Assembly: GCA_937139405.1 (NCBI GenBank)
Contig: CAKZPV010000033.1
Coordinates: 124,001-188,000, forward strand
Direction: 5' to 3'
Origin: an uncultured Nitrospirota bacterium
GTDB taxonomy: Bacteria; Nitrospirota; Nitrospiria; Nitrospirales; UBA8639
DNA: 64,000 bases
The stretch's first letter is position 1; the number at the start of each line of letters is the position of its first letter. Below are positions 396-63,912 of this stretch, one piece after another. The notes beneath the pieces were generated by a model that ran no database searches, was not told the origin of the DNA, and saw only the letters and a program-made list of their open reading frames with translations. Made by a program: the position numbers and the translations under genes.

Positions 396-524
396 ACGCA
401 ACTACTATTAGAAAGGTTGAGCTAGAGTGAAGCTCGCTTTCATCAAAATTCAAGATGTGGTCTTATCCGTAGAATGATTAACGGGTGTTCATTGTTTATT
501 CATCATTTTACAAAGGAGGAGGGT

Positions 525-700
525 TGTTTAGAAGAATGTAGGCAATTTGTGATGGGGAAGCTGGTGTAAATCCAGCACGGTGCCGCCACTGTAAGCGGGG
601 AGTGATTCTGCAATTGGCCATTGTGGGCTGTAAGCCCATGAGAAGGCGCAGAGAAGCGAGAATCCGCAAGTCAGGAAACCCAACCATTGTTTCTTCCATA
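525..700 (+). promoter_or_regulatory. Cobalamin riboswitch 1 (btuB leader)
   Basis: Hallmarks of the AdoCbl-type aptamer occur in order: the GGGAAGCTGGTGTAAATCC block (about 555-573), GCACGGTGCCGCCACTGTAA (about 574-593), a small TGGGCT/AGCCCA stem (624-638), and the B12 box AAGTCAGGAAACC (668-680). It sits in a 335-base gap before a BtuB-type receptor. By family knowledge, bound coenzyme B12 represses the downstream operon. Confidence 0.95.
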
Positions 701-704
701 AAAC

Positions 705-9231: not shown

Positions 9232-9261
9232 CAAAAGTCTCGATTGATCCTTTTTTTTAAT

Positions 9262-9436
9262 ATCGTTCATCCGGTTTAGGGAAGTTTGGTGAAAGACCAA
9301 CGCTGTCCCGCAACTGTAACGGGAACGAACGCCATTGATTGCCACTGTCTTTGTAGATGGGAAGGCTTGGTTAGTAGGCTGCCCGAAGTCAGGAAACCTG
9401 GCCGGATTTTTATAGAGCATCCTCGTGGAAAGGGAT
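9262..9436 (+). promoter_or_regulatory. Cobalamin riboswitch 2
   Basis: Aptamer elements in order: GGGAAGTTTGGTGAAAGACC (about 9280-9299), CGCTGTCCCGCAACTGTAAC (9301-9320), GCCACTG (9341-9347), GGGAAGGC (about 9359-9366) and the B12 box AAGTCAGGAAACC (9386-9398). A hairpin ATCCT/GGGAT (9419-9423 with 9432-9436) overlaps the Shine-Dalgarno AAAGGGA (9429-9435), five bases before the ATG at 9441. Its loop CGTGG can pair with CCAC at 9342-9345, the expected kissing interaction. Control is therefore probably at translation initiation. Confidence 0.95.
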
Positions 9437-13193: not shown

Positions 13194-13223
13194 TTGACAA
13201 GATGTAAGATACCCTTCTAGAGT
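13194..13223 (+). promoter_or_regulatory. Sigma-70-type promoter for the riboswitch 3 operon
   Basis: TTGACA (13194-13199), an 18-base spacer and TAGAGT (13218-13223). The -35 is perfect and the -10 matches four of six bases. The predicted start site, near 13230, falls just before the riboswitch 3 aptamer. Confidence 0.5.
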
Positions 13224-13234
13224 CGTTCGAAACA

Positions 13235-13510
13235 TATAAGGAATGAATGGTGGGAAGTAGGTGTAAATCCTGCACGGTCCCGCCGCTGTAACTGGAGACG
13301 AACCTCGCATTGGCCACTTTCCGTAGAAGTAAGGTGTAAAAAATAAGTAGTAAGGAGGTAATTTTTTATGCTCCTCACTTCTAAGAATTTACTCCTTATT
13401 GATGCTCGGATGGGAAGGCGCGAGTAGTAGGTCAGCACTATTATTAGCTGAACTTCAGAAGTCAGAATACCCCATTTATTTTTAAGCCAACATTCCCTCG
13501 TGGCAGGGGA
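13235..13510 (+). promoter_or_regulatory. Cobalamin riboswitch 3 (cobO operon leader), enlarged
   Basis: Aptamer blocks: GGTGGGAAGTAGGTGTAAAT (13248-13267), CCTGCACGGTCCCGCCGCTG, TGGCCACTT (13311-13319), ATGGGAAGGCGCGAG (about 13410-13424) and a B12 box variant AAGTCAGAATACC (13459-13471). A post-box hairpin (13493-13510) has loop CGTGGC; GTGGC (13500-13504) is complementary to GCCAC (13313-13317), the expected L5-L13 kissing pair. Between the GGCCAC element and GGGAAGGC sits an extra long palindrome (13331-13397), so the aptamer is much longer than its two neighbours. Confidence 0.93.
13331..13397 (+). repeat. Palindromic element inserted inside riboswitch 3
   Basis: Two 27-base arms (13331-13357 and 13371-13397) pair at 20 of 27 positions around a 13-base loop. 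The inner arm ends are TAAGGAG and CTCCTCA, the style of the other intergenic palindromes in this window. It lies in a peripheral loop of the aptamer and would form a coaxial extension that leaves the core blocks intact. Confidence 0.7.
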
Positions 13511-13537
13511 AGTGGTGAGGATGAAGAACTGGGTGCA

Positions 13538-13573
13538 ATCCTCAAGGTTACGCAAGCCTTGGGGATTTTTTTT
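13538..13573 (+). terminator. Intrinsic terminator, likely expression platform of riboswitch 3
   Basis: ATCCTCAAGGTT (13538-13549) pairs with AAGCCTTGGGGAT read backwards (13555-13566): 12 pairs including two G-U, loop ACGCA, then eight T (13566-13573). It lies between the aptamer and the cobO start, so B12 binding probably causes premature termination. Confidence 0.85.
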
Positions 13574-13611: not shown

Positions 13612-14208
13612 ATGTCGAATTCGGATCATCAAGCTCGCATGGAACGTTTGAAATCTTCAGTGGATCGGCGAATTGCTGCGGCCCAAGATGAAAAAGGTTT
13701 GTTAGTGGTGCATACGGGCGCTGGGAAGGGGAAAACTACGGCAGCATTGGGGATGGCCATCCGATGTCTTGGGCATGGGATGAACGTGGCTGTCGTGCAG
13801 TTTATTAAAGGTGCGATTGATACCGCGGAAGAACGAATTCTTAAAGGCTTTGGTGATCAGGTGGTGTTTCTTCGTATGGGGGAAGGCTATACCTGGGAAA
13901 CACAAGATCGAGAACGCGATAAGGCTGTAGCTCAAGAAGCCTGGGCAGAAGTGGAAAAATTTCTTCAGGATCCAAGATTTAGCATGGTGGTGTTGGATGA
14001 ATTAAATATTGCCATCCATCATGAGTATGTCTCTCTCGAACAGGTCTTGACCGCTGTGGAACAGCGGCCTCCTATGTTGCATGTCGTGATTACTGGGCGA
14101 GGCGCAAAGCCAGAGTTGATTGACGCGGCTGACTTGGTTTCGGAAATGAAGATGATCAAGCATCCCTTTCGAAATGGGATTAAGGCTCAAAAGGGAGTTG
14201 AGTTTTGA
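13612..14208 (+). CDS. cobO: Cob(I)yrinic acid a,c-diamide adenosyltransferase, CobA/BtuR type
   Basis: 198-residue cytoplasmic enzyme that transfers the adenosyl group of ATP to Co(I) corrinoids. The P-loop variant HTGAGKGKTTAALG lies near residue 36, followed by VAVVQFIKG, MGEGYTW and VVLDELNIA, all standard for the CobA/CobO/BtuR family. ATG 13612 was chosen because AAGGA sits seven bases before it; an earlier ATG at 13585 lacks such a site and would add a nine-residue extension. It is the first gene after riboswitch 3 and its terminator, and its stop overlaps the bluB TTG start. A second, unrelated adenosyltransferase follows two genes later. Confidence 0.93.
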   Translation: MSNSDHQARMERLKSSVDRRIAAAQDEKGLLVVHTGAGKGKTTAALGMAIRCLGHGMNVAVVQFIKGAIDTAEERILKGFGDQVVFLRMGEGYTWETQDRERDKAVAQEAWAEVEKFLQDPRFSMVVLDELNIAIHHEYVSLEQVLTAVEQRPPMLHVVITGRGAKPELIDAADLVSEMKMIKHPFRNGIKAQKGVEF

Positions 14209-27123: not shown

Positions 27124-27633
27124 ATGAGTCAATTGACGCATTTTAATGAATCGGGTCGGGCACGCATGGTGGATGTGACCGATAAACAGCCCACTGCGCG
27201 TGTGGCAGTGGCTCAGGGGAAGGTTTGGATGCTTCCGGAAACCCTTGAAAAGATTCAAAAAGGGCGCATAGCTAAAGGAGATGTTCTGGCTGTGGCACAA
27301 GTCGCAGGGGTGATGGGTGCCAAGCGGACACCTGATGTGATTCCCATGTGCCATCCGTTATTATTATCCGGTGTGGATGTGAACTTTTCTGAAGATATCA
27401 AACTGAATACTTCCGGGCGTTGCTCGATTACAATTGAAGCGACAGTCAAGACCTCAGGGAATACAGGAGTGGAGATGGAAGCCATGACTGCCGTCTCGGT
27501 GGCCGCTTTGACTATCTACGATATGTGTAAGGCTGTGGATAAAGGGATGGAGTTTGGTGATATTTTTCTAGTCTCTAAATCCGGTGGGAAGTCCGGGATG
27601 TACCAGCGCGGTTCTGTTAAGGGTGAAGGATAA
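27124..27633 (+). CDS. moaC: Cyclic pyranopterin monophosphate synthase
   Basis: 169-residue cytoplasmic enzyme that closes the pyranopterin ring after MoaA. Conserved segments seen: ARMVDVTDKQPTARVAVA, MCHPLLLSGVDV, GNTGVEMEAMTAVSVAALTIYDMCKAVDKGM and the C-terminal SKSGGKSGMYQRG, which holds the catalytic lysine. Full length and first gene of moaC-moaD-moaE-moaA, directly behind a strong promoter. Confidence 0.95.
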   Translation: MSQLTHFNESGRARMVDVTDKQPTARVAVAQGKVWMLPETLEKIQKGRIAKGDVLAVAQVAGVMGAKRTPDVIPMCHPLLLSGVDVNFSEDIKLNTSGRCSITIEATVKTSGNTGVEMEAMTAVSVAALTIYDMCKAVDKGMEFGDIFLVSKSGGKSGMYQRGSVKGEG

Positions 27634-27654
27634 GGTCTTTTCCCCTTATTCCTT
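27626..27654 (+). repeat. Short hairpin over the moaC stop codon
   Basis: AAGGATAAGG (27626-27635) pairs with CCTTATTCCTT (27644-27654) with one bulge, followed by ACGAAAAA. The tail CCTTACGAAAAA is shared with the palindrome before fliO (54979-54990), tying it to the dispersed palindrome family. Confidence 0.45.
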
Positions 27655-27676
27655 ACGAAAAACTCGAGCTTTACTT

Positions 27677-31919: not shown

Positions 31920-34145
31920 ATGATCAGATCTATGAGGCTTCTATTCCGGCTGTTGATATGTATGGTTGGGGTATTTCCCCTCCCCATGCATGTGTTGGCG
32001 GAGTCTCCCGCTAATACACAACAAGTGAATACGGAAAATTCTCGCGGCACACCAGTTGAAATAACCGCGGATCGCATTGAGTATGATCAAGCACGTGAAG
32101 AATATCACGCAATCGGATCCGTCGATTTGACTCGAGGACCTATGCGACTGACGGCGGATGATGCGACTCTTCAGAAATTAACCGGCCGTCTCATTGCAGT
32201 TGGCCATGCACATCTTCGTGATCAGCAGGCTGATGTATGGGCGGAGCGACTTGAACTGAATATGAATACGGAAGCTGGAGTTCTCACAACCGGAAAGATT
32301 TTTGGAAAGAAGCGGAATTCTTTTGTCACTGGGCGGCGTCTCCAGCGGTTTTCCGAAACACATTATCGAGTCAAGGAAGGTTCCTTTACGAATTGTGATG
32401 CCAAAGATGGTGAAATTCCGGCGTGGCGTTTTACATTTGATGATGTGGACTTAGATTATGAAGATAGTCTGTCTGGAAGGGGAGTCTGGTTCAATGTGAA
32501 TGATGTTCCCGTCATTCCATTACCAACCTTTCAATATCCGCTGGGAGCGGAACGAAAAAGTGGGTTGCTCGTTCCGACAATTGGTATCGATAATTCGTTT
32601 GGATTTACCTATCGCCAAGGATTTTTTTGGGCAATGACGCCGAGCCAAGATTTGACAATTTCGCCAAAAATATTGACCGAACGTGGTTTTGGGGGAGACT
32701 TGAATTACCGGTATGTCTGGAGTCGTGAGGCCAAAGGGCAATGGTTTATGAATGCATTATATGACACGGAACAAGACCGGAAGCGTTTTCAGTTTCGAGG
32801 TGCCCATGCTCAACAATTTACACCGAATCTTTCTTTCCGCATGAATTTGAATTACTCAACAGACCAACAGTTCTTGCAGGATTTGAGTAGTTCCGGGGTT
32901 CAGCGTGCATTACCTAGCCAAGAGTCCAATCTTACGTTGCTCCAGCGCTTAGATCATGGAGCGTTATATCTCTGGGGCCAATATTTACAGCCATTGAATG
33001 CGGGAGGGGATACGACGTTTCAACGGTTGCCAGAAGTCGGCCACCGTTTTTTCCATCCTGGGCTATTGGGGAGCCCGCTTGAACTTACGGCGGATACGAC
33101 TTTTGTTCATTTTTGGCGTGAAGAAGGCTTTCGTGTGAGTCGATTGGATTTCTTGCCAGGTCTGTCGATGGAAGGGTTGCATCTGGGACATACCGTTGGA
33201 TTTCGCCCTCAAGTTAAATTTCGGGAAGTCGCCTATTCTCGCGGGCTAACAGATACATCAAGACAATATCGGGAAACATATTGGCTCGGGGCTGAGGCAT
33301 TTTCCAATATTACGAAACGATTCTCTCTGGGAAATTATGGCTCGGTCAGGCATTCGGCAAAACCAAATATCATTTATGAATATGTTCCTCAAACAAGACA
33401 AGCCAAGCTTGTGAACATTGATGCTGTTGATGATCTCATCAATAAAAGTCTGCTGACCTATTCCTTCAAAAATCGAGTGAGCCATCAAGGACAAGCTGGT
33501 GCATCCAGCACATGGTTAGATCTGTTAGTGGCACAAAGTTATCATGTGGGAGATCCACCACCCTTGGCATCAAAATTTTCAGATATTTGGACACGCGGTG
33601 AATTTCATCAGCCGTTGGGAAGCACGAACCTTCTCTCTGCTTTTACTCTGAGAGTTGATGCCTTTGTGGATCATACCCAAAAAGAACTCACGCAATTGAA
33701 TACCGATGGGCTTATTCAAGGTCATAGAGCATGGTACTTCTCAGTTGGTCAACGGTATTCAAAGGCCGGATCACGGACTCGTCGCGGTGATATTTGGAAT
33801 CCTATTTCATTCAATGAAGTCTTGGCACCAGCTGAAAAAATTCTCTATCTTACTGCTGGAGGGGGAGTACGTTTGCCGGGAGGATTCACCATTGGTTCAC
33901 GTTGGTATCATGACTTCCGCACAGGGGAGACGGCGGAGTTGGATGTTGTCGCGCTGTATCAGAATCCCTGTCGTTGTTTTTCAGTCGGGCTGTATTACCT
34001 GCGGTTTCCCGATCGAGAGCAATATGATTTCTTGATCAGCCTGACAGGGCTGTGGGGGGGGCAGGGAAATGGCACACAATTGATGAGGGATATCTTGGGG
34101 CCTATTATGCAAGGAGATCGTGGTGTTCCCTGGGATTATCGCTAA
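31920..34145 (+). CDS. lptD: LPS-assembly protein LptD
   Basis: 741 residues. Signal peptide (about 1-34, VGVFPLPMHVLAES), an N-terminal OstA/LptA-like jellyroll (PVEITADRIEYDQAREEYHAIGS split over residues 50-75, ADDATLQKLTGRLIAVGHAHL), then a large beta-barrel with PTFQYPLGAERKSGLLVP and GFTYRQGFFW. LptD inserts lipopolysaccharide in the outer leaflet with LptE (not seen). This implies an LPS-bearing outer membrane. ATG 31920 directly follows the folC stop; ATG 31932 is an alternative. Cotranscription with folC and the next gene is likely. Confidence 0.92.
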   Translation: MIRSMRLLFRLLICMVGVFPLPMHVLAESPANTQQVNTENSRGTPVEITADRIEYDQAREEYHAIGSVDLTRGPMRLTADDATLQKLTGRLIAVGHAHLRDQQADVWAERLELNMNTEAGVLTTGKIFGKKRNSFVTGRRLQRFSETHYRVKEGSFTNCDAKDGEIPAWRFTFDDVDLDYEDSLSGRGVWFNVNDVPVIPLPTFQYPLGAERKSGLLVPTIGIDNSFGFTYRQGFFWAMTPSQDLTISPKILTERGFGGDLNYRYVWSREAKGQWFMNALYDTEQDRKRFQFRGAHAQQFTPNLSFRMNLNYSTDQQFLQDLSSSGVQRALPSQESNLTLLQRLDHGALYLWGQYLQPLNAGGDTTFQRLPEVGHRFFHPGLLGSPLELTADTTFVHFWREEGFRVSRLDFLPGLSMEGLHLGHTVGFRPQVKFREVAYSRGLTDTSRQYRETYWLGAEAFSNITKRFSLGNYGSVRHSAKPNIIYEYVPQTRQAKLVNIDAVDDLINKSLLTYSFKNRVSHQGQAGASSTWLDLLVAQSYHVGDPPPLASKFSDIWTRGEFHQPLGSTNLLSAFTLRVDAFVDHTQKELTQLNTDGLIQGHRAWYFSVGQRYSKAGSRTRRGDIWNPISFNEVLAPAEKILYLTAGGGVRLPGGFTIGSRWYHDFRTGETAELDVVALYQNPCRCFSVGLYYLRFPDREQYDFLISLTGLWGGQGNGTQLMRDILGPIMQGDRGVPWDYR

Positions 34146-34837: not shown

Positions 34838-34918
34838 GGCTGAGTAGTGAAGAGTCAGGAGTTGAGGAGTGGAATAGAAATACCGATAGTTTTCCTCCTC
34901 ACTATGTCTCTTTCAGTA
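34838..34918 (+). repeat. Dispersed intergenic palindrome (degenerate copy)
   Basis: A purine-rich arm containing GTGAAGAGTCAGGAGTTGAG and GAGGAGTGGAA is followed by a pyrimidine-rich arm TTTTCCTCCTCACTATG. The arms pair imperfectly. The phrase GTGAAGAGTCAGGAG recurs almost unchanged at 42219 and 63717. Confidence 0.5.
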
Positions 34919-42206: not shown

Positions 42207-42211
42207 TATCA

Positions 42212-42274
42212 ATGAGGAGTGAAGGGTCAGGAGAAAAGAAGTCTCGAAATTATTCCTCATGCTTTACGTATCAT
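42212..42274 (+). repeat. Dispersed intergenic palindrome between flgB and flgC
   Basis: Arms of 25 bases (42212-42236, ATGAGGAGTGAAGGGTCAGG at its start; 42250-42274, TTATTCCTCATGCTTTACG at its start) pair at about 17 of 25 positions around a 13-base loop. It lies inside an operon, so it is transcribed as a hairpin. Confidence 0.6.
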
Positions 42275-54915: not shown

Positions 54916-54982
54916 GGGTGTGAAGGGTGAGGCCTAAAGCGTAAGGAGATCAAAGTGGTTTTTACCTCAGGCTTCACACCTT
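54914..54982 (+). repeat. Dispersed intergenic palindrome between fliN and fliO
   Basis: GGTGTGAAG (54917-54925) pairs with CTTCACACC (54972-54980), and GAGG with CCTC inside. It ends CCTTACGAAAAA, ten bases before the fliO ATG. The clearest stem of the family in the flagellar region. Confidence 0.7.
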
Positions 54983-54992
54983 ACGAAAAATT

Positions 54993-56565: not shown

Positions 56566-56670
56566 GAACAGTAAGAGGTCAGAAGCAAAAAGCGAAAACT
56601 ATCAATAATAGCCAGGCAAATTATTTTTCATGTTTCTTTCTCTTTACTCCTTACGCGTCACTCCTAACTC
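56566..56670 (+). repeat. Dispersed intergenic palindrome between fliQ and fliR
   Basis: The 5' arm has AACAGTAAGAGGTCAGAAGC and AAAAAGCGAAA; the 3' arm reads TTTCTTTCTCTTTACTCC then TTACGCGTCACTCCTAACTC. Pairing is imperfect but runs along both arms. It fills most of the 133-base gap. Confidence 0.55.
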
Positions 56671-63712: not shown

Positions 63713-63717
63713 ATGAA

Positions 63718-63799
63718 GAAGTCAGGAGTGAATAGCAAGGAGTCAATTGTGAGCAGACAAATTAGTTGTATTGTTCTTCTTACACTTTTCTCTTGACCC
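63718..63799 (+). repeat. Dispersed intergenic palindrome after fliA
   Basis: GAAGTCAGGAGTGAATAGCA and AGGAGTCAAT form the 5' arm; ATTGTTCTTCTTACACTTTT and CTCTTGACCC form the 3' arm. About two thirds of positions pair. The phrase GTCAGGAGTGAA links it to the copies at 34852 and 42219. Confidence 0.5.
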
Positions 63800-63912
63800 A
63801 CAGTCTTTATTCCTGATTGTTTTCGCCATACCTTCCTCATTTTTTCTCTTGAGTTTCAAGGTAAATAAACCGAAAAAGAGCAAGTCGTATTTTATATGCC
63901 CAAGGTCCTGTC

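Follow-up and report, generated by a model that had tools for sequence, protein, structure and literature searches.

Among the three cobalamin riboswitches (Rfam RF00174) in the window, by which we mean the whole 64,000-nucleotide stretch of DNA analysed here, the third (RS3) carries a long hairpin in a peripheral loop, which raises the question of where this hairpin came from and what it does to the riboswitch. A sequence-only reading of the window had proposed that a mobile palindrome, of a kind dispersed through the intergenic gaps, landed in this loop and was tolerated. All three leaders score above the gathering score of the covariance model, and a whole-genome search found five cobalamin riboswitches in this Nitrospirales assembly (4.46 Mb in 51 contigs). 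RS3 itself reached 53.1 bits compared to a gathering score of 31.5, with an alignment that covers model positions 46-168 and has the P1/P2 part outside its range. Judged by this score and by its core blocks, RS3 can be classed as a cobalamin riboswitch. It possesses a B12 box, a P10/J10-11/P11 block and an expression platform bearing a terminator (Rfam alignment, fold and consensus scan), and the core blocks and terminator are as intact as had been claimed. When the helix names of Escherichia coli btuB (PMC5359240) are applied, the segment from GCCACT to GGGAAGGC would correspond, in our own mapping, to P10-J10/11-P11-J11/10-P10'. The L13 partner of the kissing loop reads GTGGC in RS3 and GTGGGC in most relatives, and a kissing loop through GTGGC is plausible. 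A TTGACA element is likewise present upstream of most of the relatives' leaders that were read out, and the gene downstream of RS3 presumably encodes a cob(I)alamin adenosyltransferase.

Table. Positions, strand and basis of the features of RS3, its neighbourhood and the heptad palindromes in the window.
Feature	Positions	Strand	Basis and remarks
Riboswitch 1 (cobalamin)	504-702		Rfam
Riboswitch 2 (cobalamin)	9256-9419		Rfam
Sigma-70-type promoter-like site, TTGACA-18-TAGAGT	13194..13223	+	Consensus scan, 10/12
RS3 cobalamin riboswitch aptamer	13252..13471	+	RF00174, model positions 46-168, 53.1 bits, gathering 31.5
Expanded P11/L11 segment between GCCACT (13313-13318) and GGGAAGGC (13412-13419)	13319..13411	+	Rfam alignment
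Heptad palindrome (hairpin), inserted at P11 tip	13328..13400	+	Fold; lag-7 p = 0.0025
5' arm heptads GTAAGGT GTAAAAA ATAAGTA GTAAGGA	13329..13356	+	20.1 bits, matrix from G002/G005 arrays
3' arm, reverse-complement heptads ATAAGGA GTAAATT CTTAGAA GTGAGGA	13372..13399	-	15.6 bits, same G002/G005 matrix
B12-box core AGTCAGAATACC	13460..13471	+	Rfam alignment
Probable P13/L13 hairpin TTCCC-TCGTGGCA-GGGGAA (putative kissing-loop partner)	13494..13511	+	Sequence and fold
Intrinsic terminator	13537..13567	+	13-pair stem plus T run, consensus scan
Presumed cobO-like gene, downstream of RS3	13612..14208	+	ORF; genus relatives full-length at 86-93%
Heptad palindrome	27616..27663		15.9 bits on - at 27636, 9.8 on + at 27616
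Heptad palindrome	34840..34907		15.4 bits on +; CTCCTCACTATGT arm
Heptad palindrome, variable presence/absence among relatives	42212..42274 (arms 42212/42247)		20.1 / 11.0 bits; orthologous gaps
Heptad palindrome, site filled in most relatives	54920..54984 (arms 54920/54957)		25.6 / 14.9 bits; orthologous gaps
Heptad palindrome	56571..56668 (arms 56571/56641)		12.3 / 25.5 bits
Heptad palindrome	63714..63831 (63714/63770)		13.6 / 9.9 / 12.8 bits

The loop between GCCACT and GGGAAGGC measures 93 nt in RS3, while its counterparts in riboswitches 1 and 2 are of the usual short kind. An extra palindrome of about 67 bases with 27-base arms, 20 of 27 paired, had been described here, and we recovered it as a 73-nt hairpin with 26 pairs in the minimum-energy structure, standing atop a short P11 foot. 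Its folding energy was equalled by 3 of 200 shuffles. The insert also holds TAAGGAGGT-N8-ATG at 13351-13370, and the ATG at 13368 opens a 19-codon frame that closes with TAG at 13425-13427. We found that the insert has a 7-base period, with a lag-7 self-identity of 0.41 compared to 0.27 in dinucleotide shuffles (p = 0.0025), and that its arms are ordered, with a + arm at 13329 followed by a - arm at 13372.

Kinship with the intergenic palindromes had been argued from quoted strings, and these proved a weak link, since the window holds 22 matches to AAGTAGTAAGGAG at up to 3 mismatches compared to 11 expected (1 of 100 shuffles reaches 22). The kinship itself was upheld by an independent heptad matrix of 28 bases, which was built from dispersed arrays of two relatives (G002 and G005) using only the heptads that flank seed matches. 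Tandem GTNARGN pairs occur 6 times in the window compared to 0.27 expected, with none at the control periods 6 and 9 and 2 compared to 0.4 expected at period 8. The best matrix score per shuffled whole window (n = 50) averaged 14.0 and did not exceed 18.6; the 5' arm of RS3 is therefore exceptional by itself, and the 3' arm less so. A BLAST search of the insert against its own genome found no second copy, which by itself would count against a family, and the heptad matrix resolved this point. The true link between the RS3 hairpin and the intergenic palindromes is the 7-base period.

Most of the other top matrix matches in the window lie between long ORFs, are palindromic and show the same arm polarity as RS3. 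One match, at 32711 (14.4 bits), is inside a long ORF, and 3 of the 9 matches of at least 14 bits fall in ORFs under a crude ORF mask. When relatives were compared, the gap at 42207 had heptads in G000, G001, G005, G006 and G015 and none in the 11 other members read, and the gap at 54916 had heptads in most members, differing in letters and length. These orthologous gaps record gain or loss of heptads. Across the genus, triple GTNARG heptads number 98 in G005, 83 in G002, 73 in G006, 65 in G001 and 34 in G020, when overlapping matches within one array are counted separately; they are almost missing from some other members, and the reversed pattern occurs 0 to 6 times. Neighbouring arms always follow the order GTRAGG (+) and then its complement (-), at 16:0 in 160 kb of G002 and 8:0 in 31 kb of G005. 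Long tandem arrays of pure heptads, for example (CGCCTAA)n and (GTGAGGC)n, occur in L276 near 18680 (G005:C151), in G006:C38 and C64, and in G013:C477; one of them lies where a contig ends, a hint that assemblies break at arrays of this kind.

Heptad palindromes also occupy L11 of cobalamin riboswitches across the Nitrospirales, in about six classes, many genera and at least two families. The GTRAGG class is found in the genus of RS3 and in G075, GTGATGA in N. lenta, G192 and G208, CGTTANN in G186 and G222, and AGCTGAN or CAGTNAN in G091, G094, G066, G077 and others; many matches to the order-wide pattern fell in coding sequence or in ordinary parts of the riboswitch core, and these were left out of the counts. 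The same pattern output contains further L11 inserts at G032:C1:761972, G194:C248:13379 and G219:C60:16699, two of them of other classes (GTCAATN and CAGTTAT). Long riboswitch spans in G051, G037, G138 and G230 turned out not to be L11 heptad inserts. In a set of 28 L11 inserts, which includes a few overlapping or near-identical entries, lag-7 identity was 0.445 compared to 0.248 (z = 22.5), lag 14 was also high, and other lags were near or slightly below chance. Single inserts such as L195, L196 and L288 do not reach significance alone; L195 (G000:C33:118523-118782) is a riboswitch of the same genome as RS3, just beyond the window, with a heptad-like L11 hairpin of its own (lag-7 alone, p = 0.06). 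Dispersed arrays of a genome's own L11 class were found in sampled stretches of G002 and G005 (GTRAGG), G192 (GTGATGA) and G186 (CGTNANN), so that three classes are matched in the few genomes sampled, and 100 kb each of G091 (AGCTGA class) and G222 contained no dispersed arrays of the L11 class.

In the riboswitch of the first cob operon, 7 genus members have a filled L11 and 9 an empty one, with at least 3 filled/empty changes on the tree of a linked locus. Perfect triple heptads are more numerous in genomes with an insert at this site (Mann-Whitney p = 0.003, for draft genomes and uncorrected for kinship), yet G000 and G007 have the L11 insert and few perfect heptads. Among the relatives, no ancestral extension that differs from the intergenic palindromes turned up; their extensions are heptad palindromes as well. 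The idea that a hairpin was inserted in a peripheral loop while the aptamer core was preserved is borne out, and the idea of one landing is not: on these comparisons, L11 has been occupied repeatedly, and its hairpins have been gained, lost, replaced and inverted. The sequence-only reading was largely right, its observation being confirmed and its interpretation supported.

The inserts can move independently of the riboswitch core. Between N. lenta (L069) and G192 (L149), the inserts agree at 86 of 100 gapless positions and the cores at 130 of 231 columns, which makes this pair the clearest single case of transfer. In G005 and G006, the first-operon riboswitches have cores that are 96% identical and inserts that agree at 61 of 100 columns, and in another riboswitch of these two genomes the inserts are near-identical. 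The RS3 insert matches those of paralogous riboswitches in two relatives: the G001 insert at 82% over 88 nt and, when inverted, the G002 insert at 81% over 69 nt, where the asymmetric apex agrees as well; the orthologous leader of G018 also matches better when inverted. Opposite orientations could arise from re-insertion or from recombination between palindrome arms. Inheritance plays a part too, as the first cob operon inserts of G000, G006 and G007 are alignable and have been inherited vertically within a clade.

These comparisons bear on whether anything had to arrive from elsewhere. Local growth of the P11 loop, through slipped-strand duplication of 7 bases and arm-templated correction, would explain why pure tandem arrays exist and why one pair of related inserts differs by 14 nt in length. 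We regard it as highly improbable, and it is disfavoured already by the near-identity of inserts that sit in non-orthologous riboswitches of different species, whose cores differ widely, as well as by the match of the RS3 insert to paralogous riboswitches of other species in both orientations. Slippage accounts for tandem runs and 7-base indels, not for inserts common to riboswitches with different cores; since inserts are shared across such cores and match in both orientations, transfer of sequence is needed. This transfer might instead run from riboswitch to riboswitch, by gene conversion of paralogues through their conserved flanks, with the intergenic family supplying no more than the first insert. 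The RS3 insert does find its closest relatives among the inserts of other riboswitches, and the two riboswitches of G005 are 87% identical in the loop compared to 81% in the cores. We nevertheless consider conversion improbable, since the heptad class that fills this loop changes from lineage to lineage and has matching dispersed arrays in sampled genomes, since the G002 insert resembles intergenic hairpins of G006 and G015 (75-77% over 73-87 nt), and since opposite orientations are unexpected from plain conversion. Copying from a dispersed family, rather than local growth, probably underlies most cases.

As to the machinery of such copying, REP and REPIN elements are recognised by a terminal GTAG or CGTC tag and a linked TnpA-REP gene, and MITEs are marked by target-site duplications and transposase-type terminal repeats. 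To our knowledge, the definition of REPs and REPINs includes no heptad period. Y1 transposase (Y1_Tnp) genes occur in 20 of 21 genomes, heptad-rich or heptad-poor alike, and a link of the heptads to a Y1/REP-type transposase was set aside as not discriminating. No linked transposase, terminal motif or target duplication has come to light for the heptad palindromes, and we therefore call them mobile on the strength of their distribution. Between the filled L11 loop of G002 and the empty one of G010, no duplication was evident by eye, although the divergence of the flanks is too great for certainty.

The extension might also have a regulatory job, whether by tuning P11, by offering a site to a protein or by holding a small reading frame. 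The inserts retain their hairpin form, and there is a precedent in M. tuberculosis metE, where an upstream reading frame lies within a peripheral extension of the B12 riboswitch (PMC11260477). In three pairs of related inserts, however, we counted no both-sided base-pair changes, 1 to 4 one-sided changes and 2 to 8 broken pairs, the last number depending on the pair and on the direction of comparison. No covariation supporting a conserved insert helix was seen in these three pairs, a small sample in which the lack of compensatory changes favours tolerance over conserved function. The insert is also missing in close relatives, and the small frame of RS3 is probably a by-product of heptads resembling Shine-Dalgarno sequences, since its ATG is ATA in the related G001 insert. 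With this evidence on both sides, we judge a regulatory job to be decidedly improbable. In each of the 16 genus members that gave a full-length match, RNase P RNA measures 423-426 nt, a constant length that speaks against an insertion there of the kind reported for cyanobacteria and indicates, from this one other RNA, that not every structured RNA has been invaded.

Altogether, these findings make it likely that the RS3 hairpin is a diverged member of a spreading family of heptad palindromes that is tolerated at the tip of P11. The arms of these short palindromes are built from degenerate 7-base repeats, which follow GTRAGGN in this genus and other heptads in other Nitrospirales. Its members would spread by copying to new sites, change fast both in sequence and, by heptad units, in length, and persist where a hairpin is harmless, as in intergenic gaps and at the P11 tip of adenosylcobalamin riboswitches. 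An insert at P11 would lengthen a peripheral stem and leave the J10/11-J11/10 block, the B12 box and the terminator in place. The stem of the RS3 insert presumably points away from the ligand pocket, and RS3, to judge from its preserved blocks, probably remains a working riboswitch in which the insert is close to neutral. It is conceivable, although on balance unlikely, that a self-copying heptad hairpin lands preferentially at the P11 tip, moved by a machinery that recognises arm polarity or the P11 loop; if so, riboswitch genes would be a repeated home of a new kind of miniature element. The filled, empty, replaced and inverted versions of this one loop form a natural series that would give a direct measure of how regulatory RNA tolerates insertion. 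Heptad repeats have been seen to spread in bacteria by no known mechanism, and this spread becomes testable here, since close relatives offer the same short site for comparison both with and without a hairpin.

What is new is the recurrent presence of palindromic heptad elements in one loop of the B12 riboswitch, heptamer repeats themselves being already known. A literature search on Nitrospira heptad repeats and on repeats in cobalamin riboswitches found nothing fitting, an absence that proves little given its poor coverage of subscription journals. Reportedly, a 1997 study, going by its title, dealt with short tandem repeats within the RNase P RNA of heterocystous cyanobacteria. Those repeats are likewise short, tandem and dispersed, and also lie inside a structured RNA gene; unlike them, the elements described here are palindromes in a riboswitch loop, with presence and absence, opposite orientations and several heptad classes. 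Heptamer repeats are also described in cyanobacteria more generally. Arrays of GGGAATC in Xanthomonas and GGGGAYT in Nostoc are G-rich and mainly intergenic, with some inverted repeats (PMC4692102), and TAACTGA repeats are described in the Beggiatoaceae (PMC4679880). As far as these texts go, the Nitrospirales repeats resemble them in being mainly intergenic and variable between related species, and differ in their heptads and in their occurrence in riboswitches, which the same portions of those reports do not mention (PMC4692102, PMC4679880). REPs and REPINs with TnpA-REP are short dispersed extragenic palindromes that propagate within genomes (PMC3733652, PMC3116915, PMC8266576), and to that extent the heptad palindromes, being short, dispersed, extragenic and apparently propagating, are like them. 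Compared to the adenosylcobalamin riboswitch of RF00174 with its P8-P12 extension, RS3 shares the core and differs by the repeat hairpin at the tip of P11.
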